Source of the DNA: Halanaerobiaceae bacterium
Lineage (GTDB): Bacteria; Bacillota; Halanaerobiia; Halanaerobiales; Halarsenatibacteraceae
Reading direction: 5' to 3'
Assembly: GCA_007134885.1 (NCBI GenBank)
Contig: SLJX01000124.1
Coordinates: 1 to 50,528 of the forward strand
Length of the DNA: 50,528 bases
A program made the translations under genes and the position numbers. Each line of letters starts with the position of its first letter. Positions within the stretch are counted from its first letter, which is position 1. The notes below the pieces were generated by a model, which was not told where the DNA came from, did no database searches, and was given only the letters and a program-made list of their open reading frames with translations. Shown piece after piece: positions 1 to 43,073 of the stretch.

Positions 1-681
1 AATTATAAGAAATATGCTGGAATTATCTACTTCCTGAACTCGATATCTATAGCCAACGGACTGCCCCAGTCTTTCCATATCTTCCTGAGAAAATGTGGTG
101 GCAATAAATCCATCCTGGCAGACTATAATCCCTTTTTTAGTTTTTGCAAAATCAATTTTTCCCAGCAGTCCTTTATCTGATTGCTCCTGAAACCAGGCTA
201 ATCTGTCCTCCCAAAAATCAGAACTATAACTACTAAAATAAGCTTTCCCCCCAGGAGAAAGCATTTTCATTCCCTGATTAACAAGGTTAAGAGGATCTCC
301 TTTTATTGCTGAAATGCCATTTTGCAGACAAATTACAACATCAAATTTCCTATCCATCCTAACAGCATGGGCATCCATAAATAATAACTCACAATTAGAA
401 ATGTTTTTTAGATATTTCTTTCCAAATTCAACAGTATCTTGCGAGTTATCTATTCCGACAATTAACCTTATATATGGAGCTAACTCTTTCATTATACGAC
501 CATAGCCAGCCCCTAACTCCAATACTTTTTCATTTCCCTGCAATTCATTTCTAATAAAAGAAATTTCTTCATTTAAATATTGTTTGACTCTATTGATTTG
601 AGTCTGATACACCTGATATAGCTTATCTGATTTTAAGTTACAGGAATAATAATTTTCATTATCTGGCTTTTTATCCGGCAT
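1..681 (-). CDS. class I SAM-dependent methyltransferase, C-terminus cut by window edge
   Basis: The frame runs from an ATG at 681 to the left edge without a stop, giving 227 residues. A ribosome site AGGAAGGTG lies 7 bases before the ATG. The SAM-binding glycine loop is VLELGAGYGR, about residues 51-60. It is followed by an acidic strand end (VGID) and by a later MLSPGGKAYF segment typical of the Rossmann methyltransferase fold. The substrate cannot be inferred. It is the last gene visible of the TRAP/AcnX operon, 96 bases after the AcnX small subunit, and may be co-transcribed with it. The family is clear; the role is not. Confidence 0.85.
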   Translation of the reverse strand, partial: MPDKKPDNENYYSCNLKSDKLYQVYQTQINRVKQYLNEEISFIRNELQGNEKVLELGAGYGRIMKELAPYIRLIVGIDNSQDTVEFGKKYLKNISNCELLFMDAHAVRMDRKFDVVICLQNGISAIKGDPLNLVNQGMKMLSPGGKAYFSSYSSDFWEDRLAWFQEQSDKGLLGKIDFAKTKKGIIVCQDGFIATTFSQEDMERLGQSVGYRYRVQEVDNSSIFLII

Positions 682-777
682 TACAAACACCTTCCTGACA
701 GTAAATATAACTACCTGAACAATAAAATAACTGTAAATGAAATAGTTTTACCCATTAACCGGTTAATCAGAATCCAG

Positions 778-1179
778 TTAATCTATTGAGATTATACTTT
801 CATCTGCATTTATTTCTATAACATCATCATCTTCAATGATACTATAAAAATCTTCGTCTACCTTATCAACCAAAGGGATATTCATAATAATTGAGGTAGC
901 TACAAGAACTGTATCCGGATATTTAATAATCATGCCAATTGGAGCATTATTTTCTTGTTGTAACTGATATAGCCCATCAGCCTGTACAACCGAGCTTCCT
1001 TTTCCACCCGGAAATACAATGATTTTATTGGCAATACTTTTACCTTCTAAATCGTGGTTTTTTTCTATTACTTGACCATCTTTCGGATCTACCAGGTAAA
1101 AACACAGGGGATCCTTTGAAATCACAATTTCACCCTTTGCCTTGCCTTTGGCTATTTTATGACATCTATATCTTCTCAT
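778..1179 (-). CDS. aconitase X small subunit (swivel domain, DUF126)
   Basis: This 133-residue protein matches the swivel domain of aconitase X, encoded separately as in the two-subunit bacterial and archaeal enzymes. The recognisable core is IVFPGGKGSSVVQADGLYQL, residues 54-73, followed by the segment with NNAPIGMI. Its ATG overlaps the stop of the large-subunit gene by four bases (ATGA), so the two are translationally coupled. Known AcnX proteins are cis-3-hydroxy-L-proline dehydratases in bacteria and mevalonate 5-phosphate dehydratases in archaea. The substrate here is open. The C-terminus is strongly acidic (EDDDVIEINADES), as expected in a halophile. Confidence 0.9.
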   Translation of the reverse strand: MRRYRCHKIAKGKAKGEIVISKDPLCFYLVDPKDGQVIEKNHDLEGKSIANKIIVFPGGKGSSVVQADGLYQLQQENNAPIGMIIKYPDTVLVATSIIMNIPLVDKVDEDFYSIIEDDDVIEINADESIISID

Positions 1180-2387
1180 CTCAATTCCCCCTTAATAGCA
1201 GCTTCCGTAGCTCGAGATAAATCTGCAATATAAAAACTCATATTTCTTCTTTTAGTATAATAAGCACATTTAGGAGAATCAGTAACTCCTTTTTTTCCCG
1301 ATAAAAATTTCCAGCAGGGCTGGTCAATGCATGTTTCTGTTACTAAATGTCCACCTGCACTTTTTATAGTATCAAGATATCCCATTTTTCTGGCCAAACT
1401 TTTGGTCAAATTTGAAACACAAACCCAAAAGGGTACAGAAAACTTCCGGCTTCCGAGAACATTAACGATCTGTTCTATCTGTTTAATTGTAAGATGAGGA
1501 CAGCCAAATAAGGCAAAATCTATTTCCCCCTTTTTATCTGATATACTGGAATATGTTTCCTGGATATCTTCATCTTTAATCACCATTTTATTCCGGGGCT
1601 GGTGATTTTGAAAGGCTGCTTTAATATTAGGAGCTTCAGGGGTATATCCAACTATATGATACAGGGAAACAGCCCCGGCAGTATTAAGTTGAGCACCCAG
1701 ATTCATAAGCGCCTCTGAACTGATCTTATCCGGCAAACCAACAAAAACCGGTATGGTATCATGATAATCATTCATCCTGGGAAACGTATAACCCAGTAAT
1801 TGATAATCAAAATCAGACTTAATTTTTGCCTCTACTTCAACAAGTACCTGGCCTCTTCTATTTTCTTCAAGCAGCAATCCATATTCAGGAACACGACCGG
1901 TCATAGCCGCACAAAGAGCACTCTGAGCAGATTCCCGATTGGTTCGGGCACCATAAATTGAATTAATATAGGGGGTTGCGCTGGATTCAGAGAAGGCAAC
2001 AACTTCTTTAAACCTTGGTATATTATTTTCCAGGTATGGTGTACAATTATATGTCAGAGTAGCTCCGATTTCCCGGTAAGCTTTTCTGGTTCGCTCAATT
2101 ATATCAACTTCTTCCTGAGTAAATTCAATATAATTTTTAAAATATTCCAGATTATAAGGAGGGTTAACTGTTGGAGAGATCCGACATTTATTACCTTTTT
2201 TTAATAATTTCTCTACAAACCATAAGTCTGCTTCCTGATTACTTAAAGCAACATGGACCCTGCTTATCTCCACCATTCTTTCAGCTTCAAAAGCTTCCCC
2301 GATTGCCTGCTGAATTTCCATTGCCAGGGCTATACCTTCCCCATATTTTCCTGCTAACATATCTTTTTCTTCAGAAGTTAACTTCAT
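1176..2387 (-). CDS. aconitase X large catalytic subunit (DUF521)
   Basis: This 403-residue protein is the catalytic part of aconitase X, an iron-sulfur dehydratase of the aconitase superfamily. The start MKLTSEEKDMLAGKYGEG is typical of the family. Candidate cluster cysteines lie in the SALCAAMTGRVPEYG, LFGCPHLT and TCIDQPCW segments. A ribosome site GGAGGCAGAA precedes the ATG at 2387. It lies between a LarA-like gene and the small subunit, downstream of a TRAP transporter. I infer that the pair dehydrates an imported hydroxy acid or hydroxyproline-type compound, or a derivative of one. The family assignment is firm; the substrate is inference. Confidence 0.92.
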   Translation of the reverse strand: MKLTSEEKDMLAGKYGEGIALAMEIQQAIGEAFEAERMVEISRVHVALSNQEADLWFVEKLLKKGNKCRISPTVNPPYNLEYFKNYIEFTQEEVDIIERTRKAYREIGATLTYNCTPYLENNIPRFKEVVAFSESSATPYINSIYGARTNRESAQSALCAAMTGRVPEYGLLLEENRRGQVLVEVEAKIKSDFDYQLLGYTFPRMNDYHDTIPVFVGLPDKISSEALMNLGAQLNTAGAVSLYHIVGYTPEAPNIKAAFQNHQPRNKMVIKDEDIQETYSSISDKKGEIDFALFGCPHLTIKQIEQIVNVLGSRKFSVPFWVCVSNLTKSLARKMGYLDTIKSAGGHLVTETCIDQPCWKFLSGKKGVTDSPKCAYYTKRRNMSFYIADLSRATEAAIKGELR

Positions 2388-2421
2388 TTCTGCCTCCTTT
2401 ATAGTGAATTATCTGTTTTTA

Positions 2422-3719
2422 TTATTTGCTTTTAACTACAGGAAGAGCATCCCCGCCTCTAGGTAATACACCTATTGTCCCCCGGGGTTTAATTTTTAAA
2501 GAACTATTTATGGCTTCCTGAATGTTATCAAAATATTTGTAACCTAAAGACTTTATTGCATTTTTATTCAAACCTTCGGTAACAATAAAGATTTCAGCTT
2601 TTTCCCTGATTTTTGCGTTGCTAATGGCTAAATCTGCAGCAATAAGATCACGATCTTTTTTTGATAATGAAGTTCTTTTTGCTATCTGACAGGCATTTGC
2701 ATGGCTTTCTTTCAACCAATTGATTAAATCAGGATGATTATTTTCCAAACCTTCATAACAGGGTGCAGCTAAAATAATAATCCCGCCCTGTTTAACAGCA
2801 AAGGAAGCTGAAATCAGCCCTTTATCTGCCTGCCACCAGTCAATATCAAAGGGATAAGAGCTAACAATCAAAATATCTGCAGCCTCTTCTATTTCAACAC
2901 CGTAGGCCTGACGGGCTTTTTCAACACCCTTTCGGTGGGCTTTGATAAAATCTCCTGAATAAACACCAACAATTTCATCATTATAATTTTTTACAATATT
3001 AATAATAAAATCCAAACCAATTTTCCTTGTAACTTTCTCTATACCCTGTCTGCAGAGGTTTTCAACATTACCCAGGGGAATTTCATCAAGTAAAGCTGCT
3101 AAAATATGTGTTGCTGCTGTAGTAGAATAACCACAAATTCCTGGTTCCACAATCTTTGCTCCCCCTGAATAGCCTGCATCAGAATGGGGAACAATACTGC
3201 CAATACCAATTATAAAGTCAGCCGCCAAAGCATTTCTATTAACCTCAATAGGAATTTCTCTCCCATTTATAGTAACCTTGCCTAAATTTGCTAAGATCCC
3301 CTCATCCTGATAATCATGCTGAATTATTTTATAATTATCTGCTATCTTTCTCCCTAATTTCTTAACAATCTCTTTTTCAGTCATAATTCTATGAGTACCA
3401 GGAGCTATCATAATAGTTATATTTTTCTTATTAACGCCTGCATCTCTCAAATAAGGAAGCAGGACAGAGAGAATTTCATCTACCGGTGTATTTCTGGTGT
3501 TGTCTTCAACTAAAATTAATATTTTTTTTTATGCTTAATCAAGGAATCAAGAGAGCGGCACCCAACCGGTTTAATAAAACTCCTTTGTAATCTTTCAATT
3601 AAATTTTCAAGTTTTGCAATTAATTGCATCTCCCCCACAAACAATAATTGCTCTTCCGGTATTTTAAAGTCTAAAAATTTATCCCCATAATGAATTTTTA
3701 AACTTATATTCTTATTCAT
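2422..3719 (-). pseudogene. LarA-type nickel racemase/epimerase gene, frameshifted
   Basis: The gene begins at ATG 3719 with the ribosome site GGAAGGGTGAGAG and runs for 66 family-like residues. After a run of nine A (plus positions 3522-3530) it reaches a premature stop. One extra A restores a continuous protein of about 432 residues, the usual LarA length, reading KKKILILVEDNTRNTP across the junction. On the repaired numbering, the residues matching the LarA catalytic His, His, Lys and His are H110 (APGTHR), H179 (VPHSDAGYSGG), K189 and H205. LarA binds a nickel-pincer nucleotide and racemises lactate; relatives act on other 2-hydroxy acids. The frameshift may be real decay, phase variation, transcriptional slippage or a sequencing error in the homopolymer. 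Confidence 0.85.
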
Positions 3720-3752
3720 TATCTCTCACCCTTCCAGCAATTTTAAGCCAAA

Positions 3753-5042
3753 TTAAAGCATACCCAATAATCTGGGAATAAACAGGGTTATGTCAGGGAA
3801 AAAACCAACTAAAATAACCACACCAATATGAATTGTGATAAAGGGTAAAATCTCGATAAATATTTCTTCCACTTCAGCCCCCGAAACAGAAGAGGCAGTA
3901 AATAAACACAGGCCTAAAGGCGGTGTTATCAAGCCAATTAACATAGATATAATAATGATAATCCCGGCCTGTAAAGGGTGAAATCCAATCTGGACCATTG
4001 CCGGAGGTAAAACCGCAGCCAGCATTATTATACTTGCCCCGGCTTCCAGCCAGGTTCCCAGAAACAATAGAAAAAATAAAATGATCAAAAAAAGCAGGTA
4101 TTGGTTTTCTGTTATTCCAAGCAAAAATCCTGCCAGCTGTCTGGGGATACCCTCCTTGGCAAGCAACCAGCCTAATATATCTGCAGCACCTATTATCAAA
4201 AATAAAATTGCAGAAGTTTTCACTGCTTTTTTTAATACTTTGGGCAGAGCAGATAATTTCAGCTCTTTGAATAAAAAGAAACCAACAAAAATTGCATAAG
4301 CACAGGCAACTGCCCCGGCTTCAGTAGCGGTGAAAACTCCACCCAAAATACCCCCCAGAATTATTAACGGCATAATTATTGCCGCAATTGCATCTTTGGT
4401 GACTGAAAAAAATTCCTTTTTGGTAATTTGCACGGTGCTTTTAGGGAAGTTCTTTTTCTTAGCAAAATATACAACTAATATGCTTTGACCAACACCAATT
4501 AAAATACCTGGTAATATAGCTGCAGCAAATAAACCTGCTATTGAAACACCAGTTACCGAACCATAGAGTACTATAGTGATACTGGGAGGTATTATCGGAC
4601 CAACTATAGATGATGAAGCAGTAATCATTGCTGAAAACTTTTTGGTATAACCACTTTTCTCCATGGCTGGAATCAACAGCGAGCCAATAGCCGATACATC
4701 TGCTATAGCAGAGCCGGATATTCCTGCAAATAAAAGGCTGGAGTAGATATTAACATGAGCCAATCCTCCTCTAACTCTGCCAATAATAATTTCTACAAAT
4801 TTTACCAGCCTTGAAGTTATTCCTGATTCATTCATAATTTCTCCTGCAAGCATAAAAAAAGGTATAGCTAGCAAAACAAAGCGATTGATTCCTCCATACA
4901 TTCTCATCGGAATTACCCGAAGAGAAATTTCTCCCAGATATAACCAGAAAAGGCTTGTCATTCCCAGAACAAAGGCGATTGGAAGTCCGAGAAATAAAAA
5001 TATAAGCATTATGAATAAAGTAATATAATGAAATATACTCAT
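3753..5042 (-). CDS. dctM: TRAP transporter large membrane subunit (DctM family)
   Basis: This 429-residue hydrophobic protein is the ion-coupled permease of a tripartite TRAP importer, which works with the DctQ and DctP proteins encoded upstream. It has about a dozen membrane segments and family blocks such as LLFAGISGSAIADVSAIGSL, IVGPIIPPSITIVLYG and TATEAGAVACAYA. Its ATG overlaps the dctQ stop by four bases. The gene lies 33 bases before the LarA-like gene, so transport and metabolism appear to share one transcript. TRAP systems usually carry carboxylates, driven by a sodium gradient, which suits a halophile. The specific substrate is not visible. Confidence 0.95.
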   Translation of the reverse strand: MSIFHYITLFIMLIFLFLGLPIAFVLGMTSLFWLYLGEISLRVIPMRMYGGINRFVLLAIPFFMLAGEIMNESGITSRLVKFVEIIIGRVRGGLAHVNIYSSLLFAGISGSAIADVSAIGSLLIPAMEKSGYTKKFSAMITASSSIVGPIIPPSITIVLYGSVTGVSIAGLFAAAILPGILIGVGQSILVVYFAKKKNFPKSTVQITKKEFFSVTKDAIAAIIMPLIILGGILGGVFTATEAGAVACAYAIFVGFFLFKELKLSALPKVLKKAVKTSAILFLIIGAADILGWLLAKEGIPRQLAGFLLGITENQYLLFLIILFFLLFLGTWLEAGASIIMLAAVLPPAMVQIGFHPLQAGIIIIISMLIGLITPPLGLCLFTASSVSGAEVEEIFIEILPFITIHIGVVILVGFFPDITLFIPRLLGML

Positions 5043-5560
5043 ACTCCCAGATCCTCATCTATGATTTTTATTTCTACCTCATATTCTCCTGTTATCAGAC
5101 TTGTAATTCCTTTATAGGAATTAAATAAGACTTGAAATAACATTAAACTACCTCCAACAGAGAGAGAAAGATAACCCCAGGTTCTCCGCAAACCTGTTGC
5201 AGGAGAAATAGAATTCCAGTGGTTTATAGCATATCTCAGTCCACCAGTAATTAAGGCAATCAAAAAAATTATGATTACCAGGTTATTTAACAGTTTAACA
5301 ATAATTTTGTTTCTGTCAGAAAATTTTTTTATAAAAAATAAAATGGCAGCATGTTTTTCTTCTTTAATAATTATACTTGAACCAACCAAGGCAATCCAAA
5401 CCATTAGATACATTGCTATTTCAGCTGTCCAGGGAGTGCTTTTTCCAATTATATAGCGCGAAACAACCTGAATTAATATAATAACCAGCATTGATCCCAT
5501 CAAAATCATAGTAAAATATTCTGCGATTTTGTTTAAAATAATAGACAATTTCTCAAACAT
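5039..5560 (-). CDS. dctQ: TRAP transporter small membrane subunit (DctQ family)
   Basis: This 173-residue protein has four predicted membrane helices and the DctQ core STPWTAEIAMYLMVWIALVG followed by KEEKHAAI. It forms the membrane complex with DctM. The stop overlaps the dctM start (ATGA). The gene starts 235 bases after dctP, and that spacer holds a long-stem hairpin that could lower expression of the permease genes relative to the binding protein. Confidence 0.93.
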   Translation of the reverse strand: MFEKLSIILNKIAEYFTMILMGSMLVIILIQVVSRYIIGKSTPWTAEIAMYLMVWIALVGSSIIIKEEKHAAILFFIKKFSDRNKIIVKLLNNLVIIIFLIALITGGLRYAINHWNSISPATGLRRTWGYLSLSVGGSLMLFQVLFNSYKGITSLITGEYEVEIKIIDEDLGV

Positions 5561-5690
5561 AATATCCCTCGCTTTTAATCTTTACCTCATGGCATTATCC
5601 GCTTTTTTAGTCTTTATCTCAGGACATTAACTTAATCTGAAATTAAAAAAGCCTTTTAATTAATAATCATAATTAAATGCGAGCAAAAAT

Positions 5691-5760
5691 AAAGGCCCCA
5701 TTTTCCTGTTAATTTGACCATCATGCTTTCAGGTTGAGATAAAGATAAAATGGAGCCTTT
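5691..5760 (-). terminator. hairpin between dctP and dctQ, possible partial terminator
   Basis: The outer arms are 14 bases with a single mismatch (AAAGGCTCCATTTT against AAAATGGGGCCTTT, read on the minus strand). They enclose about 42 bases and are followed by TATTTTTGC. It sits just after dctP and before dctQ. It could act as an attenuator or as a barrier that stabilises the dctP message. A second hairpin occupies the same place in the other TRAP operon. Confidence 0.6.
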
Positions 5761-5795
5761 CTTCAGACTATTTTTTAGTTACTGGAGTCAAACTG

Positions 5796-6908
5796 CTAAT
5801 TTGCCCCAACTTCATCATAACCCAATTCTCCTAAAGCTTTTTCAGCTTCTGCTATAATATCATCCACCCAGGTTTCATCTGCAACAGCATTTCTAACAAA
5901 TTCAGTTACCGGTTCTTGAGTGGCTTCTCTAAATAACTGCATTTCATCTTCTGTGGGATTATATATTTGTACCCCCTGTCCCCTCAAGTATTCTTCCCCG
6001 GCAACTCTCATGATACGAGTTTGTCTTCTTGCAACTTCAGACATTCTGCGTCCACCTTCCAAAATTATTGCCTGATACTCAACTGGCAATGCTTGAAACC
6101 AGTCATCATTTGCTAATATTTGAGTCATACTAAAAAAGTGTCGATCCAGTGTTAAATAATCCTGAACCTCGTATACTTTGGCCATCATTAGTGTTGGAAT
6201 TGCATTTTCCTGACCATCTGCAACTCCTGTAGCCAGTCCTGTATAAAGTTCAGTCCAGGGAATTGTTACAGCCTTAGCACCCAATCTTTCAACTAACTCT
6301 ATATGAGAAGGAATTTCCATAACTCTAATTGTTAGTCCTTCCATATCTTCAGGAGTTCTAATTTCTCTTACATTATTTGTGAAAGAACGAAAGCCACCAT
6401 TATCAAACCAGGCAATTGTTTTTAAACCTGTATCCAGTCTCATATCTTCAAATAGTGTCTGTCCCAGTTCTCCATCAAAAACATGTAAGGCATGGTCTAC
6501 ATCTCTAAAAAGATAGGGAAGGGAAACCACCTGAATGTTTGGGTAAATAGTTGATATTGCACCATCACTGGTTAATATTACCTCCACAATACCATCCATA
6601 GCTAATTCCTGTAATTCTCCCAGATCGCCTAATTCACCACCCGGAGAAAGATTCACTGTTATTTTACCATCAGAAACTTTTTCAACATATTCCTTAAAGG
6701 CCACCATTGAAGCATGGTCCTGCAGGTGGGGATCAGGAGGACTGGGATGGGCGGCAGTAAAAGTGATTGAATCTAAACCAGATAGATCTAAATCTAAAAC
6801 ATCCAGAGCACTTTGCTGGATAACTGCTTGACTTACAGGTGAATAGACAGTAACTGCAAGAGCAATTACCATGATAAAAATTAAAGATCTTATAATTTTA
6901 GAGTACAT
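5796..6908 (-). CDS. dctP: TRAP transporter solute-binding protein (DctP family)
   Basis: This 370-residue protein has an N-terminal signal segment (hydrophobic residues 8-24, ending near SQA) and no lipobox cysteine. The DctP signature is GLTIRVMEIPS, which contains the conserved substrate-carboxylate arginine, followed by ELYTGLATGVADGQENAI. It captures the solute outside the membrane and passes it to DctQM. A ribosome site GGAGGAACAATT precedes the ATG. A TATAAT at 6959-6964 may be the operon -10 element, but I could not find a convincing -35. The acidic surface is consistent with high salt. Confidence 0.95.
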   Translation of the reverse strand: MYSKIIRSLIFIMVIALAVTVYSPVSQAVIQQSALDVLDLDLSGLDSITFTAAHPSPPDPHLQDHASMVAFKEYVEKVSDGKITVNLSPGGELGDLGELQELAMDGIVEVILTSDGAISTIYPNIQVVSLPYLFRDVDHALHVFDGELGQTLFEDMRLDTGLKTIAWFDNGGFRSFTNNVREIRTPEDMEGLTIRVMEIPSHIELVERLGAKAVTIPWTELYTGLATGVADGQENAIPTLMMAKVYEVQDYLTLDRHFFSMTQILANDDWFQALPVEYQAIILEGGRRMSEVARRQTRIMRVAGEEYLRGQGVQIYNPTEDEMQLFREATQEPVTEFVRNAVADETWVDDIIAEAEKALGELGYDEVGAN

Positions 6909-7108
6909 AATTGTTCCTCCTAAATTAAATTTTTATTAAGATTTTTAAGCTAACCTGCATTATACAAATTGAATTTTATCTCCAGTATCAATTTTTACTG
7001 CTAAATCACATGATATCCCCTCCCTGGAATAATACCGTAATAAAAAACTTTAAGAGTAATTATTTTCCTAATGAAGTTTATTAAAAAAATAAGATAAATT
7101 TTCACGAG

Positions 7109-7864
7109 TTAATAATCAATTTGGTTTTGACGATTATTAAAACAATACTCTTTGATGATATTAAAAAGAGACCCCTGTTTTTCTATCATTAGATCAATTA
7201 GATTATCAGCTGCCTTATCAATATGAGTGCCAAGTTTATCAATTAACATTTCGTTATTATTATGGATTAAATCAATTATTTCTATATGTTGATAAATTGT
7301 ATCTTCAATATTATCGTGAACAATGGCTGCTAAAAATTGATACCTGCTCACCTGAGCATTTATTGCTTTAAACAAAAATTGAATATAATGATTTTTACTC
7401 TTGTTGACAATCATATTGTGAAGTTCCTGATCATTTTTGGAGATATTTCCCCAATCAATTTTTTTATTTGATTTAACTGTACTTAAACACTCTTTCCACT
7501 TAGATTTAAGATACTCAATTTCACTATCAGTAAAATTTGATTTTGATGATTTAATAGCTTCACATTCCAGGGCTTTTCGGGCATCATAAATTTGTTTTAA
7601 ATCATTTATACTAATATCACTAACATAAATGCCGCCTTTATTAACCTCGACTAAATTTTCCTGGGATAAAATATTAACAGCCTCTCTGACTGGGGTTCTG
7701 CTCATGTTTAAGGCCTCTGCCAGCATATTTTCACTGAGACAACTCCCTGGTTCAAATTTAAAATTTACAATTGCATTTTTTATGTTGTTATAGGCAATTT
7801 CAGAAAGCTTATTTCTTTTTTGATCATTCTTAATTTTCCTCACACTTTCTGCTATATCTTTCAT
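7109..7864 (-). CDS. GntR-family regulator with FCD ligand domain
   Basis: The winged-helix part holds the recognition helix MLAEALNMSRTPVREAVNIL, and an all-helical FCD domain follows. From ATG 7864 the protein has about 251 residues. This start has GGGGG six bases upstream. A longer frame from GTG 7888 is possible but has no better ribosome site. FCD regulators usually sense the organic acid handled by the neighbouring operon. It lies 200 bases upstream of dctP on the same strand and is the obvious regulator of the TRAP/LarA/AcnX genes. A perfect palindrome CTGTATACAG upstream suggests autoregulation. Confidence 0.93.
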   Translation of the reverse strand: MKDIAESVRKIKNDQKRNKLSEIAYNNIKNAIVNFKFEPGSCLSENMLAEALNMSRTPVREAVNILSQENLVEVNKGGIYVSDISINDLKQIYDARKALECEAIKSSKSNFTDSEIEYLKSKWKECLSTVKSNKKIDWGNISKNDQELHNMIVNKSKNHYIQFLFKAINAQVSRYQFLAAIVHDNIEDTIYQHIEIIDLIHNNNEMLIDKLGTHIDKAADNLIDLMIEKQGSLFNIIKEYCFNNRQNQIDY

Positions 7865-7905
7865 AAAAAACCCCCATTTAACCCCCACTTAATTTCTAAT
7901 ACCTG

Positions 7906-7915
7906 CTGTATACAG
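7906..7915. promoter_or_regulatory. candidate GntR operator
   Basis: CTGTATACAG is a perfect 10-bp palindrome containing TGTATACA, the type of site bound by FCD-class GntR repressors. It lies 42 bases upstream of the gntR ATG and about 14 bases downstream of a TATAAT (minus strand, 7929-7934). A bound protein there would block transcription of gntR. Confidence 0.6.
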
Positions 7916-14902: not shown

Positions 14903-15814
14903 TTATTTTTTCCGTCCATATTTTTCAATCAGACCCAGATCTTCCATGGTTTGTTTGAGATTTTGTAATTTTTCCTCGTCCAGTTCTTTTAAAGGCTTCC
15001 TGGGACTGCCTACAGAAAAACCGAGCAAGTTCAACCCAGCTTTTATAACCACGGGATTGGTTACCGAGTAGCACAGCTGCATCAGCTGAAAATATTTTTC
15101 AACCAATTTTCTGGACCGGACTGCATCGGAAAAATCCTCCCATTCCCGGGAAAGTTCAGCAAACTCTTCGGGAGCTAAATTACCTGTGATATTGGTTACA
15201 CCCTCTCCCCCAATTGCCAGGTTGGGAAGAATAATTGAATAAGCAGGGGAGTCACAGGTTAAAACATCCACTGAATCAGCCATTTCTTTTCTGACCTTAA
15301 TAAGCTGGGAAACATCTCCTACCGCTTCTTTAATTGCCACAACACCGGATATCCTGGAAATCTTAACCAGGGTATCTGCATTAATATTAACTCCCACCCT
15401 GGAAGGATTATTATACACTGCTATCGGAATATCAACAGCCCCCGCAACCTGCTGATAAAACTCAAGAATATCCCTCTGAGGAGGCTTGATGTAGGGAGGG
15501 AGCACCATAAGTGCGCCATCAGCATTGCACTCTCTGGCAAATTCAGTCATTTTAATTGTGGTGCTGGTATCAGGGCCTGTAGTTCCCACCAGCAGAGGAA
15601 TTTCATTTCTAGCATAATCAGTGGTAAATTCTATTACCTCCTGCTTTTCTCTGACTGTCAGCATGGAAGCTTCTCCTGCTGAGCCTAACACCAGCAGTCC
15701 GTCTGTTTTATGAGCAACATGAAAATCAATTATTTCTTCAAATACAGTATAATTGATAGAGTTATCATCATTAAAGGGAGTAGGAATTGCCACCCAGGAA
15801 CCTTTAATATCCAT
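14903..15814 (-). CDS. DapA-family lyase (4-hydroxy-tetrahydrodipicolinate synthase-like)
   Basis: This 303-residue TIM-barrel enzyme has the Schiff-base lysine K162 (AIKEAVGD), the catalytic tyrosine Y134 and R139 in YNNPSRVG, and Y108 (PPYIKP), as in dihydrodipicolinate synthases. The usual GTTGE loop is GSAGE (44-48), so the second threonine that contacts pyruvate is alanine. I chose ATG 15814 because AGGAGG lies seven bases upstream; the in-frame TTG at 15818-15820 is too close to it. It is on the same strand as a TRAP operon and a PPC protein and not beside lysine genes. It may therefore be a catabolic aldolase of the same superfamily rather than DapA. Confidence 0.88.
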   Translation of the reverse strand: MDIKGSWVAIPTPFNDDNSINYTVFEEIIDFHVAHKTDGLLVLGSAGEASMLTVREKQEVIEFTTDYARNEIPLLVGTTGPDTSTTIKMTEFARECNADGALMVLPPYIKPPQRDILEFYQQVAGAVDIPIAVYNNPSRVGVNINADTLVKISRISGVVAIKEAVGDVSQLIKVRKEMADSVDVLTCDSPAYSIILPNLAIGGEGVTNITGNLAPEEFAELSREWEDFSDAVRSRKLVEKYFQLMQLCYSVTNPVVIKAGLNLLGFSVGSPRKPLKELDEEKLQNLKQTMEDLGLIEKYGRKK

Positions 15815-16007
15815 TTTCAAACCTCCTAGTTAAAATTATCGATATATTTAACCATTGAAATTAAATATCAAGAAAATATATCTGTCACTTTTACATAAAA
15901 TCATAACGAGGTTAACAATTTCATAAACTGTTTTATATAAATTATCCGACCACAAAAGTTTGTTTCCCTTATCTCTTTTCTAGCTAAACCGGCTGCAGCT
16001 CAACCGG

Positions 16008-16376
16008 TCAGGATTCCACTGTATACATCAACTGCAAACCATGTCCGCCTCTAAACACCCTGCCTTTATATAAGCTACCTCCCTGAACTGCCCCATCATT
16101 TAATGCCCCCGATATATGAATATGAGTGTGGTATTCTCCGGCAGCAGTCATTTTAACATTTCCCGCAATTGACACTATTTCAAAGGGCCCTTCCAGTTCA
16201 AATTTTATTATCTCGGGATTTTCCGATAAACTGTCTGATACCTTCAGCCCAACTTCTTCAAGGGAACCAATAGCTGAAATCAGAATTATTTCCTGGTAAT
16301 TATTTTCTTTCATAAGCTGATTTAATCCTTCCAAAAAATTTTCTTTTTTAGCAAACAGATGTTTTCGTAGTTTCAT
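16008..16376 (-). CDS. PPC-domain protein (DUF296)
   Basis: This 122-residue protein carries the PPC fold signature, the histidine cluster GEYHTHIHISGALNDGAVQGGSL, which can bind a metal. Single-domain bacterial members are widespread and of unclear function; some are described as DNA-binding. ATG 16376 is chosen because GGGAGAG lies six bases upstream; a longer frame from 16415 has no ribosome site. It lies between the second TRAP permease and the DapA-like gene, all on the same strand, which suggests a role in that pathway. Confidence 0.85.
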   Translation of the reverse strand: MKLRKHLFAKKENFLEGLNQLMKENNYQEIILISAIGSLEEVGLKVSDSLSENPEIIKFELEGPFEIVSIAGNVKMTAAGEYHTHIHISGALNDGAVQGGSLYKGRVFRGGHGLQLMYTVES

Positions 16377-16608
16377 TGTAATCTCTCCCGGAAGTCTTTT
16401 AAATCTTTCAGTCAAATTCTTAATCCAATTATTATAAAAATAGACAGAGATTCAACCTTATCAAAATTATTTAATGATTAATAAAGATAAGAAATAAGGT
16501 AAGAAATCAAAAACACAATCAGATTTATGAGATCTAATTAATATCTGCCTTCAAACTTTTTCCCAGTACAAGAACCTATTGAAACATTACAAAGATCCCT
16601 GCATTGGT

Positions 16609-17886
16609 TTAATATACAAGCCCGGGGATAAATGTTGTCAGAGGTGGAAAAAGAATAAGCAGTACAATCACAAATATAAAGATAAATATTAATGGAATAA
16701 GCGCTTTTAATGTCCGAACTACAGATAGCTCCCCTATTTCACAGGCAATTAAAAAACACAAACCGTAGGGCGGTGTGATCAGGCCCAGTGAGAGACTGAC
16801 ACAAACAAGCACTCCCAATCTGACCGGGTCAAAGCCCATGGTGGTCTGGATTGTCTGAATAAAGGGAATAAAAACCAGAATTGCTGCTACCGGACTCATA
16901 AAGGTTCCTACCACAATTAAAATTATACTTAAAAAGAACAGGGTTCCGGTGGGCCCCAGTCCTAAAGCTTCTAAAGCGTTCATGAAATAGGTTCCGGCTC
17001 CTAAATAACTTATCAGCCAGCCAAAAAGCCCGGCGGAACCTATGGCAAACAGAGGCAGTGGGTAAAAAAGGGCTGTTTTCTTAAAAAGCTCAAAAAGCCC
17101 TTTTAATTTTACAGTTCTGAAGACAAATATCACCAAAAACAAACCATAAATTACTGCCACAGCTCCTGCTTCTGTAGCGGTAAATACACCACCGGTAATA
17201 CCAGCAACAATTAAAACCGGCATCAAAAGAGGTAAGATAGCTTTTTTGAAGCTCTCAAAAAAACTGCTTTCAGGGCCTGGTATATACCTGGCATAGTTAT
17301 GCTTTCTGGCCAGATAATAAGTATAAAACATCTGGGTAAGTCCAACCAGGACTCCGGGAATAATGCCGGCTAAAAATAGCGCCCCGATTGAAACTCCTGC
17401 TGCGGCCCCATAAACAACCATGTAGATGCTGGGAGGAATTATTGTGCCCATGGTGGAAGATGCAGCTGTAATAGCGACTGAAAAATCCAGATCATAACCA
17501 TCCTGTTTCATCGCTGGAATCATGATTCCACCAACTGCAGAGGTATCTGCTGCTGAAGAACCTGAAATACCTGCAAATAACATGCTGACCAGTATATTGA
17601 TATAGGCAAGGCCACCCCGAAAACGGCCTACAATATGCTGACTGAATTTTACCAGGTAAGGGGTGAGATTGCCCTCATTCATCATAAAACCTGCCATCAG
17701 GAAAAAGGGGATGGCCAGAAGAGGAAATAATCTAACTCCTTCATAAATTTGTGAAACAACTACCCTTAAAGATATTCCTTCTGATAAAAGAATTACTGCT
17801 GAGGAACCAGAAAGGGCAAAAGCTATGGGAACTTTTATCAGGCACAACAGCAAAAAAATCCCTATTAACAGCGCTAATTCATTCAT
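16609..17886 (-). CDS. dctM: TRAP transporter large membrane subunit (DctM family)
   Basis: This 425-residue polytopic protein has the DctM blocks MLFAGISGSSAADTSAVGG, MGTIIPPSIYMVVYG and FTATEAGAVAVIYG. It is a paralogue of the permease at 3753-5042. The start shares one base with the dctQ stop (TGATG), and a ribosome site GAGGTGCAGGG precedes it. It should form the importer with the proteins encoded at 17886-18374 and 18612-19613. The substrate is unknown; the neighbouring DapA-family lyase hints at a 2-keto or sugar acid. Confidence 0.95.
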   Translation of the reverse strand: MNELALLIGIFLLLCLIKVPIAFALSGSSAVILLSEGISLRVVVSQIYEGVRLFPLLAIPFFLMAGFMMNEGNLTPYLVKFSQHIVGRFRGGLAYINILVSMLFAGISGSSAADTSAVGGIMIPAMKQDGYDLDFSVAITAASSTMGTIIPPSIYMVVYGAAAGVSIGALFLAGIIPGVLVGLTQMFYTYYLARKHNYARYIPGPESSFFESFKKAILPLLMPVLIVAGITGGVFTATEAGAVAVIYGLFLVIFVFRTVKLKGLFELFKKTALFYPLPLFAIGSAGLFGWLISYLGAGTYFMNALEALGLGPTGTLFFLSIILIVVGTFMSPVAAILVFIPFIQTIQTTMGFDPVRLGVLVCVSLSLGLITPPYGLCFLIACEIGELSVVRTLKALIPLIFIFIFVIVLLILFPPLTTFIPGLVY

Positions 17887-18374
17887 CAGCCCTGCACCTC
17901 ATTATTCCTGTTAGATATATAATTTTTAATGTTATCTGCCATATCTTCTATAAAAAACAATATGATTAAAGCTCCCATAATCGGAATTGGAGCAATAAAA
18001 ATTGCTCTACTTAATCCTAATTCCCTGGAAAACCTTGTCAGGCTCGATACTGCCATATCATACCCCTGAATTAAAAAAATAAATCCCAGGACCAGGATAA
18101 TTACTTTAGATATAGTATCAGGAATAATGTTTATACTGCTTTCATCAGGCCAGATATTTATTTTAAAGTGAGATTTTCTGCGGACTGCAAGGGCAGAGCC
18201 TAAAAATATTCCCCAGGTAAAGGCCAGAATAGTAATTTCTTGAAACCCCCGCACCGGCAGCCTGATTAAATATCTGTCTACTACCCGGGCTATGGTAAAA
18301 AGGATTATAATAACTAAAAATAAAATACATAAATAGGTCAAAATTTTATCTAAATAATTAAAGAAGGTTTTCAT
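17886..18374 (-). CDS. dctQ: TRAP transporter small membrane subunit (DctQ family)
   Basis: This 162-residue protein has four membrane helices and the DctQ-type central segment RGFQEITILAFTWGIFLGSA. The ribosome site GGAGGGTAAGAC precedes its ATG. It is coupled to dctM and separated from dctP by 237 bases containing a strong hairpin. Confidence 0.92.
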   Translation of the reverse strand: MKTFFNYLDKILTYLCILFLVIIILFTIARVVDRYLIRLPVRGFQEITILAFTWGIFLGSALAVRRKSHFKINIWPDESSINIIPDTISKVIILVLGFIFLIQGYDMAVSSLTRFSRELGLSRAIFIAPIPIMGALIILFFIEDMADNIKNYISNRNNEVQG

Positions 18375-18480
18375 GTCTTACCCTCCAGGCAAAAGAGCAG
18401 ATATATAGATTTAAATATCCTGACTTAAATAATTATCTTCTTGAACCAGGGAATAATGAGTTAAAGAAACAAAATTTAAG

Positions 18481-18509
18481 ACATTTCCCCGGATTGCCCG
18501 GGGAAATGT
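18481..18509 (-). terminator. strong hairpin between second dctP and dctQ
   Basis: A perfect 12-base stem (ACATTTCCCCGG with CCGGGGAAATGT) closes a five-base loop. On the minus strand it is followed by CTTAAATTTTG, so the T tract is weak. It probably limits readthrough from dctP into dctQM or protects the dctP message. Confidence 0.65.
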
Positions 18510-18611
18510 CACTGTGATTAAGGTGTCTGCTGTCTCAGATAAATATTCAACTATTGCATTTAAAGATCTTTAAGTTATAGCTATTAACCAATTAACAGCT
18601 ATTAATCAATA

Positions 18612-19613
18612 TTAGTAATCTAAATTGATAATCAAGTCAAGCACTTCTGAGACACCAATATCTTCAGCAAATTCTTCATGCAGCGGCTGTAAGGCTTCAG
18701 CAAAAGCTGCAACATTTACATCTCTATTAATTTCCACACCTCTATCGCTGAGCTCCTCCAGCACCTCTTCCTCTTCTTCAAGGCCTGCTCCTATACTCTC
18801 CATTGCTGTTTCTCTGGCAACATTCATAACAATTTCCTGATATTCTTCGGGAAGTTCTTCAAAGGTATCTCTGTTAACAAACCAGACTCCCACCATATAT
18901 TCATGTTCTGTTCTGTTATGATACTCTGCTACTTCATAAAGAGAATTACCCAGATATCCAACTGTGGAAGATTCAAAGGCATCAGCTACACCAGTCTGAA
19001 TTGCAGTATATAGTTCGGTAAAGGGAATAGTGGTGGTTGAGGAACCCAGAGAAGCCCACATTTCATCTTCTATAGGAGATTCCATTACCCTCATGGTGAT
19101 ACCTTCAAAATCATCCGGTTCTGTCACCGGTCCAAAGGTGGTATTGACATTTCTGGTACCGCCACCCATGAAAGGCATGAGTTTCAAATGAGGCTGTCTC
19201 TCTTCTACTATTTCGCTGAAGGCCTGGAAAACTTCACCGTCCGGGTCAACTGCTGCCTCCAGGTGATTTTGATCTACAAAAAGATAATTAAAGCTTAATA
19301 GTTGAAATTCCGGGACAACTGTAGTTGCATTAGCGGCAGTGCCAACATTCATATCCACTGCTCCTACTTCCATATCATCAAAAACAGCTTCATCAGTTCC
19401 CAACTGTCCCCCGGTATAGAGGGTAACCAGCACATTACCATCGGTCTGACTTTCCACCTCTTCGGCAAAATTCTCCATTACGGTAATCCAGGTATGAGGT
19501 CGATGGGGCATAGTGGCAAAACGCAGAGTGTAGGTTTCAGCAGCAGCTCCAAAACCAGAAACCAGAACAAATGATACCAGCAAAATTAACATAATTAAAT
19601 ATTTTTTCACCAT
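18612..19613 (-). CDS. dctP: TRAP transporter solute-binding protein (DctP family)
   Basis: This 333-residue exported protein has an N-terminal signal helix (residues 5-25, cut near GAAAETY). The DctP signature is GITMRVMESPIEDEMW, with the conserved Arg, followed by PFTELYTAIQTGVADAFES. The usual VDGQEN is altered to ADAFES, a difference from the first operon's protein that may reflect another ligand. The sequence is rich in Glu and Asp. The ribosome site GGGGAGGTTTA precedes ATG. Its promoter is at 19878-19906, about 260 bases upstream. Confidence 0.94.
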   Translation of the reverse strand: MVKKYLIMLILLVSFVLVSGFGAAAETYTLRFATMPHRPHTWITVMENFAEEVESQTDGNVLVTLYTGGQLGTDEAVFDDMEVGAVDMNVGTAANATTVVPEFQLLSFNYLFVDQNHLEAAVDPDGEVFQAFSEIVEERQPHLKLMPFMGGGTRNVNTTFGPVTEPDDFEGITMRVMESPIEDEMWASLGSSTTTIPFTELYTAIQTGVADAFESSTVGYLGNSLYEVAEYHNRTEHEYMVGVWFVNRDTFEELPEEYQEIVMNVARETAMESIGAGLEEEEEVLEELSDRGVEINRDVNVAAFAEALQPLHEEFAEDIGVSEVLDLIINLDY

Positions 19614-41653: not shown

Positions 41654-41728
41654 TGGAGCGGGAAACGGGATTTGAACCCGCGACATTCACGTTGGCAACG
41701 TGATGCTCTACCGCTGAGCTATTCCCGC
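41654..41728 (-). tRNA. tRNA-Gly(GCC)
   Basis: A 75-base cloverleaf including encoded CCA, with acceptor GCGGGAA, anticodon loop TTGCCAA and discriminator U as usual for glycine. It is last in the cluster. Confidence 0.97.
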
Positions 41729-41793
41729 CCATCTTTTCAGGAACCCATTTTATAGGAACCCATTTTTTCGGAAAAGTAATCTTAAATAAAAAA

Positions 41794-41880
41794 TGGTGGA
41801 GGGGAAAGGATTTGAACCTTTGTAGGCATCGCCGGCAGATTTACAGTCTGCTCCCTTTAGCCAGACTCGGGCACCCCTCC
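41794..41880 (-). tRNA. tRNA-Tyr(GTA)
   Basis: 87 bases with a long variable arm, acceptor GGAGGGG/CCCCTCC, anticodon GTA and encoded CCA. Confidence 0.97.
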
Positions 41881-41930
41881 CCGAAAAATTGAAGTTTATT
41901 TAAGATAAAATTAAAGTTTAAGGGTTAAAA

Positions 41931-42006
41931 TGGTGGAGATAAGGGGATTCGAACCCCTGGCCTCTACACTGCCAGTGTAGCGCTCTCCCAGCTGAGCTAT
42001 ATCCCC
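41931..42006 (-). tRNA. tRNA-Ala(GGC)
   Basis: 76 bases, anticodon loop CTGGCAG, acceptor GGGGATA/TATCTCC with the alanine-type G-U pair, encoded CCA. Confidence 0.97.
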
Positions 42007-42015
42007 ACTTGAATT

Positions 42016-42092
42016 TGGAGCCGATGACCGGACTCGAACCGGTGACCTCTTCCTTACCATGGAAGCGCTGCTACCACCTGAGCTACATCGGC
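42016..42092 (-). tRNA. tRNA-Thr(GGT)
   Basis: 77 bases, acceptor GCCGATG/CATCGGC, anticodon loop ATGGTAA, encoded CCA. Confidence 0.97.
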
Positions 42093-42123
42093 CCGCAAAT
42101 GTTAGAACATAGATTGATTAATG

Positions 42124-42177
42124 GTTTGGTTGCTGGTTTGACTGATTACTTGATAGTTTGATTGCTGGTTTGACTGA
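42124..42177. repeat. 22-bp direct repeat in the tRNA-Asp/tRNA-Thr gap
   Basis: Two 22-base copies beginning GTTTGGTTGCTGG or GTTTGATTGCTGG and ending TTTGACTGA start 32 bases apart with one mismatch, inside the longest gap (182 bases) of the tRNA operon. Confidence 0.75.
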
Positions 42178-42274
42178 ATTTTAGTTTATATTCGAAATGC
42201 TGCTGGATTTTCTGCTTGATTGGGAGTCTGGTTGTTCTCCAGTTTTAGTCTTATCTTTTTGGAAAAAAGGAAAG

Positions 42275-42351
42275 TGGCGGGGGCGACGGGATTTGAACCC
42301 GCGATCTCCGGCGTGACAGGCCGGCGCGTTAAGCCACTTCGCTACACCCCC
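42275..42351 (-). tRNA. tRNA-Asp(GTC)
   Basis: 77 bases, anticodon loop CTGTCAC, discriminator G, encoded CCA. Confidence 0.97.
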
Positions 42352-42356
42352 GAAAA

Positions 42357-42432
42357 TGGTGGGCGAAACAGGGCTCGAACCTGTGACCCCCTGCTTGTAA
42401 GGCAGGTGCTCTCCCAGCTGAGCTATTCGCCC
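42357..42432 (-). tRNA. tRNA-Val(TAC)
   Basis: 76 bases, acceptor GGGCGAA/TTCGCCC, anticodon loop CTTACAA, encoded CCA. Confidence 0.97.
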
Positions 42433-42436
42433 GTAT

Positions 42437-42512
42437 TGGTACCCTCAAGGGGATTCGAACCCCTGTCGCCAGGATGAAAACCTGGTATCCTAGACCCCTA
42501 GACGATGAGGGC
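42437..42512 (-). tRNA. tRNA-Glu(TTC)
   Basis: 76 bases, acceptor GCCCTCA/TGAGGGT with a terminal G-U pair, anticodon loop TTTTCAT, encoded CCA. Confidence 0.96.
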
Positions 42513-42538
42513 ACAGCTTAAAAAAGGTGTTCTCTGTA

Positions 42539-42632
42539 TGGCGGAGAGGGAGGGATTCGAACCCTCGCCAGAGCTAGATGCCCTGCTACAGGTTTAGCAA
42601 ACCCGCCCCTTCAGCCACTTGGGTACCTCTCC
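42539..42632 (-). tRNA. tRNA-Ser(GCT)
   Basis: 94 bases with a long variable arm, acceptor GGAGAGG/CCTCTCC, anticodon GCT, discriminator G, encoded CCA. Confidence 0.97.
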
Positions 42633-42637
42633 AGGTT

Positions 42638-42714
42638 TGGTGGGTCTAAGAGGACTCGAACCTCTGACACCGTGGGTATGAACCACGTGCTCTAGCCAGC
42701 TGAGCTATAGACCC
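42638..42714 (-). tRNA. tRNA-Met(CAT), probably elongator
   Basis: 77 bases, acceptor GGGTCTA/TAGACCC fully paired (so not the initiator), anticodon loop TTCATAC. The CAT anticodon also fits the lysidine-modified isoleucine tRNA; the loop flanks favour elongator Met. Confidence 0.9.
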
Positions 42715-42721
42715 AGGAAAA

Positions 42722-42798
42722 TGGAGCGGGAAACGGGATTCGAACCCGCGGCCCTCAGCTTGGAAGGCTGATGCTCTAGCCAGCTGAGCTACTCCCGC
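42722..42798 (-). tRNA. tRNA-Gly(TCC)
   Basis: 77 bases, anticodon loop CTTCCAA, acceptor GCGGGAG/TTCCCGC, discriminator U, encoded CCA. Confidence 0.97.
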
Positions 42799-42831
42799 CC
42801 GATAATCATTACTTGAAAATAAAGAGAAAAA

Positions 42832-42908
42832 TGGTTGCGGGGGCCGGATTCGAACCGACGACCTTCAGGTTATGAGCCTGATGAGCTACCAGACTGCTCC
42901 ACCCCGCG
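42832..42908 (-). tRNA. initiator tRNA-fMet(CAT)
   Basis: 77 bases. The unpaired C1-A72 at the acceptor end and the run of G-C pairs below the anticodon loop CTCATAA mark the initiator. CCA is encoded. Confidence 0.97.
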
Positions 42909-42916
42909 ACAAAAAG

Positions 42917-42992
42917 TGGTGAGCCATGGAGGAATCGAACCTCCGACAACCTGATTAAAAGTCAGGTGCTCTACCAACTGAGCTAATGGCTC
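42917..42992 (-). tRNA. tRNA-Lys(TTT)
   Basis: 76 bases, acceptor GAGCCAT/ATGGCTC, anticodon loop CTTTTAA, encoded CCA. Confidence 0.97.
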
Positions 42993-42998
42993 CTCTAT

Positions 42999-43073
42999 TG
43001 GCTGGGGCGGCAGGATTCGAACCTGCGCGTCCTGGGACCAAAACCCAGTGCCTTACCGCTTGGCTACACCCCA
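42999..43073 (-). tRNA. tRNA-Gln(TTG)
   Basis: 75 bases, acceptor TGGGGTG/CGCCCCA with the glutamine U1-A72 pair, anticodon loop TTTTGGT, discriminator G, encoded CCA. First tRNA after 5S. Confidence 0.97.

Follow-up and report, generated by a model that had tools for sequence, protein, structure and literature searches.

Which reactions are encoded by a gene cluster that joins a tripartite ATP-independent periplasmic (TRAP) importer to a LarA-type racemase and a two-subunit aconitase X (AcnX)? The question is raised by a contig from Halanaerobiaceae bacterium (GCA_007134885.1, contig SLJX01000124.1; C165 in our set), whose entire 50,528 bases are the window analyzed here and which belongs to what we take to be a metagenome-assembled genome (MAG) of 2.31 Mb in 207 contigs, 95.8% complete. 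A sequence-only reading of this DNA had proposed a joint uptake and degradation route in which a 2-hydroxy center is epimerized before dehydration, and knew of no described pathway joining these activities. Our search of the open literature agreed, returning no paper with both 'aconitase X' and 'LarA' and none with both 'aconitase X' and 'urocanate', so that the pathway looks undescribed in that literature. The cluster is probably the signature of a 2-hydroxy-acid degradation route that has not been described. We tentatively favor a regulated cluster for the catabolism of such an acid, at best guess one bearing an imidazole, that would pass through LarA, then AcnX and then urocanate degradation, a reading that we hold to be quite possible though short of probable. 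Only two AcnX reactions are known, and the AcnX clade of the window now has a context (a racemase, an importer and, in other genomes, urocanate-degrading genes) that makes its function testable.

Genes were assigned by open reading frame calling and Pfam/NCBIfam profiles. All share one direction, as the sequence-only reading had described, and lie on the minus strand; they are listed here in order of transcription, with the one sequence feature that matters below placed after its gene.

7109..7888, minus strand: gntR, a GntR/FCD-type regulator (PF00392 and PF07729)
5796..6908, minus strand: dctP, TRAP solute-binding protein (PF03480, 231.7 bits)
5039..5560, minus strand: dctQ, TRAP small permease (PF04290)
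3753..5042, minus strand: dctM, TRAP large permease (PF06808, 384 bits; TIGR00786, 382 bits)
2422..3719, minus strand: larA-type gene of the nickel-pincer 2-hydroxy-acid racemase/epimerase family, frameshifted in the assembly (PF09861 in two frames and PF21113, that is, Lar_N and LarA_C)
3522..3530, minus strand: A9 homopolymer (T9 on the plus strand) at the larA frame break, the only A/T run of at least 9 in the window (frame test)
1176..2387, minus strand: acnX large subunit, type II, 403 aa (PF04412, 416.9 bits)
778..1179, minus strand: acnX small (swivel) subunit, 133 aa (PF01989, 87.8 bits)
1..690, minus strand: class I methyltransferase, reaching the contig end (PF13649)

The tight spacing noted earlier from dctQ to acnX was borne out, with 4-nt overlaps at dctQ/dctM and at the two acnX genes and gaps of about 34 nt on either side of larA; wider gaps separate gntR from dctP (200 nt), dctP from dctQ (235 nt) and the small acnX gene from the methyltransferase gene (88 nt). 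The operon holds a complete TRAP set of DctP, DctQ and DctM, and both the large and the swivel domain of AcnX score above their family cut-offs. The methyltransferase had been counted as part of the cluster. It does share the strand, but it lies outside the interval 778-7915 given for the cluster and adjoins AcnX elsewhere only in a 99%-identical contig (L037), so that it was dropped as a pathway member and is probably outside the pathway. That contig is a 3.8-kb near-copy (positions 1-3791: the 3' part of larA, acnX and the methyltransferase gene) that comes from the same organism but is binned in a 'Bacteroidetes' MAG from sediment, and is very likely misbinned. No ligand was inferred for DctP from PDB similarity, since many TRAP proteins match it about equally.

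The arrangement of the cluster exceeds chance, as its recurrence in other genomes indicates. A genome scan and searches of sampled genomes (identity of at least 54%) placed the AcnX clade in 23 Bacillota genomes, including Halanaerobiales, Desulfotruncus, Desulfofundulus, Acidaminobacter and relatives, Dethiobacter, Ca. Formimonas, Thermacetogenium and others. A LarA-family gene adjoins AcnX in seven of these (G000, the genome of the window, G063, G067, G163, G126, G180 and G400), usually together with a TRAP importer, and the LarA proteins concerned fall into three subfamilies: the malate racemase (MAR)-like type of the window (window, L043, L080 and L109), a LarAH10-like type (L039) and group 22 of the nickel-pincer nucleotide (NPN) family (L082 and L083). 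The probability of such adjacency by chance was estimated at about 3e-8 by genome and 6e-5 by lineage, both rough figures that assume about 2.2 LarA genes per genome. TRAP importer genes occur at six AcnX loci, and a GntR regulator of the same family adjoins AcnX at 12 of the 22 loci. The window LarA is 54-55% identical to the AcnX-adjacent LarA of Acidaminobacter and its relative and 53% identical to that of G400. The clade of window-type LarA proteins (support 99/99) has five members, all from AcnX-containing genomes and four of them at an AcnX locus; the fifth (G070) stands divergent from a TRAP operon, in a genome that also carries a LarAH10-like larA beside a related GntR gene and TRAP genes. 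These conserved neighborhoods support uptake, LarA and AcnX as parts of one route, as the sequence-only reading had supposed. Gene order itself varies, larA preceding acnX in the window and following it in Acidaminobacter and G163. LarA may plausibly precede AcnX in acting on one and the same carbon skeleton. In two Acidaminobacter-type loci (L043, 4373-14107, and L080, 6324-16187), two AcnX pairs of different sub-clades flank one TRAP operon, the second pair being accompanied by LarA and a HisC-like transaminase.

The AcnX clade itself comprises 24 sequences from 22 loci and is monophyletic (support 100/99), to the exclusion of the At type I enzyme and of type IIb from archaea, although the deep branches of the tree are long. 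Within it, the window AcnX clusters with the copies encoded beside LarA in Acidaminobacter and G163 (88/85); its nearest relative is that of G004, at 69%. The Fe-S cysteines C115, C296 and C353 and the active-site residues E134, K373 and Y377 are invariant in all 24 sequences, and the small subunit keeps the catalytic-Ser loop GKGSSVV. The best PDB match of the window AcnX is the archaeal TkAcnX (7CNR), followed by AtAcnX.

Two-subunit AcnX enzymes of type IIa dehydrate cis-3-hydroxyproline (PMC8184944), and the best curated NCBIfam match of the large subunit, NF051439, is that family. The match scores only 207 bits, however, where the cut-off is 700, and all four cis-3-hydroxyproline landmarks, with residue roles as in PMC8184944, are changed throughout the clade: Asp203 to Ala, Trp35 to Tyr, Thr72 to Val, and Ile206 changed or deleted. 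The characterized enzymes (PMC5144071, PMC8184944) share with the window clade the AcnX fold, the Fe-S dehydratase chemistry, the catalytic Ser/Glu/Lys/Tyr and a setting in uptake and degradation clusters, but the window cluster has no proline racemase-like or hydroxyproline genes, and the clade is partnered by LarA and TRAP or by Hut genes instead. With LarA linkage recurring across three LarA subfamilies as well, we regard cis-3-hydroxy-L-proline dehydration by this AcnX as very improbable. The sequence-only reading had stated that its route would lack support if two outcomes came together, a clade fully explained as this dehydratase and a LarA-like gene that is never a neighbor; the comparison of active sites and of neighborhoods gave the opposite in both cases. 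The archaeal mevalonate-5-phosphate dehydratase (type IIb; 7CNR/7CNS) likewise has two subunits and three equivalent Fe-S cysteines (C110/C283/C342), but its phosphate-binding loop (Gly48-Val49-Ser50/Asn53) is shorter and altered in the window clade, with Leu, Ser, Asn and a gap in place of these landmarks, and the window clade stands in a bacterial catabolic context rather than in isoprenoid synthesis. For the bacterial subclasses IIc-IIf, neither landmark residues nor a function are on record (PMC8184944). The clade appears to fit that description, although it could not be matched to any named subclass, and judging from its residues it appears to represent a third, uncharacterized AcnX subtype.

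The residues of the window LarA were examined in the same way. The catalytic H108, H174 and K298 and the NPN-binding K184 and H200 equivalents are present, and the D72/R75 equivalents are seen in the motif EDNTR. The closest characterized LarA, by both PDB and NCBIfam, is the malate racemase LarAH6/Mar2 (6D6Z), with which the window protein shares these NPN-binding and catalytic residues. It differs in reaching half of the curated cut-off score, in having an AcnX partner and in its specificity residues: malate racemases carry H/Q358-K359 (PMC11770544), whereas the window LarA has S175-D176 and D358-L359, an uncharacterized signature in place of that of MAR. Positions 175/176/358/359 read C, D, D, I in L109 and S, D, V, L in L043 and L080, so that D176 is common to all four proteins and D358 to the window and L109. 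A lysine to bind a second carboxylate is missing, and the acidic residues suggest a substrate with a cationic or hydrogen-bonding side chain; a malate or tartrate racemase identity is disfavored by these positions. The LarA of L039 has the Tyr358 pattern found in racemases for hydrophobic or bulky side chains. The genome of the window encodes a second, intact LarA (C125, L036, 3167-4441) with the lactate racemase pattern F-F-W-E, next to genes for a GlcD-like FAD dehydrogenase and Etf-like proteins; it is likely the lactate racemase of the organism.

The link to urocanate and histidine degradation is not visible in the window alone, and was hence absent from the sequence-only reading. Elsewhere, hut genes stand alongside AcnX at about ten loci, the key members having been verified by curated models. 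G004 has the order AcnX-L-AcnX-S-FtcD-FtcD-HutI-HutU-HutH, AcnX-HutI-HutU are contiguous in L095, and HutU, HutI and FtcD accompany the same clade in L030, L038, L109 and others. LarA, AcnX and Hut genes occur together in single clusters at two loci. L109 reads GntR-AcnX-LarA-DctPQM-ABC-HutU-FtcD-HutI-FtcD in one direction, and L039 reads GntR-LarA-AcnX-symporter-HutH-FtcD-HutI, with a transporter other than TRAP; the C-terminal part of its FtcD scored best, below the cut-off, as the related methenyl-tetrahydrofolate cyclohydrolase. A hutU gene neighbors AcnX at 8 of the 22 loci (rough chance estimate, 5e-12) and occurs in 20 of the 23 AcnX-containing genomes, that of the window included (contig C68). 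Since hutU is common anyway, in 181 of 297 genomes (61%) of one order, co-occurrence by itself is weak and was set aside as sole evidence; adjacency is the stronger point. The described Hut pathway has neither AcnX nor LarA, and hutH was not recognized within the stretches examined of L109, L095, L047 and L048.

In the pathway that we propose, the TRAP importer would bring a 2-hydroxy acid in, the LarA-family nickel-pincer enzyme would invert its C2 hydroxyl and make both stereoisomers usable, the Fe-S AcnX would remove water, and the product would enter urocanate/histidine degradation through HutU, HutI and FtcD. Going by the context in other genomes, the acid would most likely bear an imidazole; imidazolelactate is one candidate, and imidazole-glycerate, as an example of its 3-hydroxylated relatives, is another. 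Imidazolelactate would yield urocanate, which needs loss of the alpha-hydroxyl. By standard AcnX chemistry, 2,3-dihydroxy-3-imidazolylpropanoate would yield imidazolepyruvate, from which histidine might be reached via the HisC-like transaminases present at several loci. We also considered a more specific proposal, that this AcnX is a third AcnX enzyme, an imidazole 2-hydroxy-acid dehydratase making urocanate or imidazolepyruvate and providing an entry to histidine degradation for which the ammonia-lyase would not be required, with its LarA partner a new nickel-pincer racemase of the imidazolelactate type; in this specific form the proposal is unlikely. If true, it would add a third AcnX function, a new LarA substrate class and a new 2-hydroxy-acid route in anaerobic bacteria.

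Several observations weigh against the imidazole pathway. The window has no hut gene, and the hutU of this genome lies on its separate contig with no other hut genes around. In place of Hut, other AcnX loci carry MttB/RidA, IlvD, or genes of the HisD-like, short-chain dehydrogenase/reductase (SDR) and alcohol dehydrogenase (ADH) kinds accompanied by a sugar-type ABC transporter. The larA gene of the window has a broken frame, and searches for larC (PF01969) found none in this MAG or in G063, G067 and G163. Finally, the AcnX mechanism as solved removes the alpha-hydrogen (C2-H) and the beta-hydroxyl (C3-OH) (PMC8184944), whereas imidazolelactate would lose its alpha-hydroxyl; a beta-hydroxylated substrate would suit the known mechanism better.

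The same chemistry opens a route without imidazole, in which the importer would admit a sugar acid or a diol acid of the tartrate type, LarA would epimerize it at C2, and AcnX would take the C3-OH and the C2 proton to give a 2-oxo acid. This agrees with the C2-H, C3-OH mechanism (PMC8184944), and tartrate epimerization is a side reaction of characterized malate racemases (PMC11770544). In L046 an IlvD/EDD-type dehydratase gene shares 4 nt with acnX, and an indolepyruvate ferredoxin oxidoreductase-like gene is also present; in L082 such a dehydratase gene is found at a distance of 6.5 kb. Near AcnX in L085 stands a KDG-kinase-like gene, with KDPG-aldolase-like genes recognized there by eye. Such a route would leave the Hut genes unexplained, however, and window-type LarA proteins carry neither the MAR nor the gluconate-epimerase signature; we judge it possible but not likely.

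The loci with dehydrogenases suggest a further alternative. HisD-like dehydrogenases occur at five AcnX loci, zinc-dependent ADH (Zn-ADH) at five, SDR at three or more and sugar-type ABC importers at four. The HisD-like proteins have AGRY and VAFGD..SGPNH segments in common with sulfopropanediol dehydrogenase, to which their match is almost as good as that to histidinol dehydrogenase. By analogy with HpsNOP of dihydroxypropanesulfonate catabolism, these enzymes could produce, from a 1,2-diol, a 2-hydroxy acid with one particular configuration, perhaps at several AcnX loci, and they would appear to replace LarA there as the supplier of one stereoisomer. Taken literally, the analogy would have dihydroxypropanesulfonate or sulfolactate imported by TRAP or ABC systems, one sulfolactate enantiomer formed by the HisD-like enzyme (HpsN), SDR and ADH (HpsO/P) or by LarA, and sulfite expelled by AcnX. 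Two of the AcnX-clade hosts are sulfate reducers, which would fit. Yet no sulfonate, sulfo-lyase or sulfite-handling genes were recognized beside AcnX, none of the dehydrogenase genes is in the window, histidinol dehydrogenase is still the top score of the HisD-like proteins, and the Hut linkage would go unexplained; we consider this route quite improbable.

Another sub-group of the AcnX clade has RidA, MttB and xanthine-dehydrogenase-like genes. In L047 and L048, AcnX is accompanied by an ABC transporter of the quaternary-amine type, by MttB-like methyltransferases and by genes of glutamate mutase (MutS, GlmL and MutE; by eye in L048). A mesaconase role hinted at by the latter was rejected, since these genes are confined to that group; moreover, LarA could not act on citramalate.

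Is the cluster functional in this organism? The family assignment of larA in the sequence-only reading was correct, but the gene is not one open reading frame, a break that had gone unnoticed. The first 67 codons (3517-3719) correspond to Lar_N positions 1-56 and end in TAT-TAA just after the A9 run. The remainder lies in another frame, with EDNTR shortly past the break, and carries the C domain of LarA together with Lar_N positions 53-194; one added A at the run restores an uninterrupted frame of 432 aa that includes this motif. Decay of the cluster around a larA pseudogene would accommodate the frameshift and the missing larC. It accords less well with a defect of one base that falls on the sole 9-base homopolymer in 50.5 kb, with catalytic residues kept on both sides of the break, with all other genes being intact and with a 96%-complete MAG in 207 contigs, and we think such a remnant rather unlikely. 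The orthologs of larA in other genomes are intact. The break is compatible with an assembly or sequencing error, with a slippage site and with a fresh pseudogene. The near-copy L037, the only overlapping contig found, does not discriminate among these, as it begins just downstream of the homopolymer, and LarA activity in this very strain is uncertain. As for the cofactor, larC is present in the congener G001 and in G004, G126, G180 and G400; its absence from the searches of G000, G063, G067 and G163, which all have both AcnX and LarA, may reflect incomplete genomes or another NPN supply.

Two features of the window lie apart from this cluster. A second TRAP operon on the minus strand (14903-19613; DctP 18612-19613, DctQ 17886-18374, DctM 16609-17886) is followed by genes for a PCC-domain protein and a dihydrodipicolinate-synthase-family aldolase, and the region is probably another acid uptake and cleavage unit. 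Thirteen tRNA genes are clustered at 41654-43073 on the minus strand.

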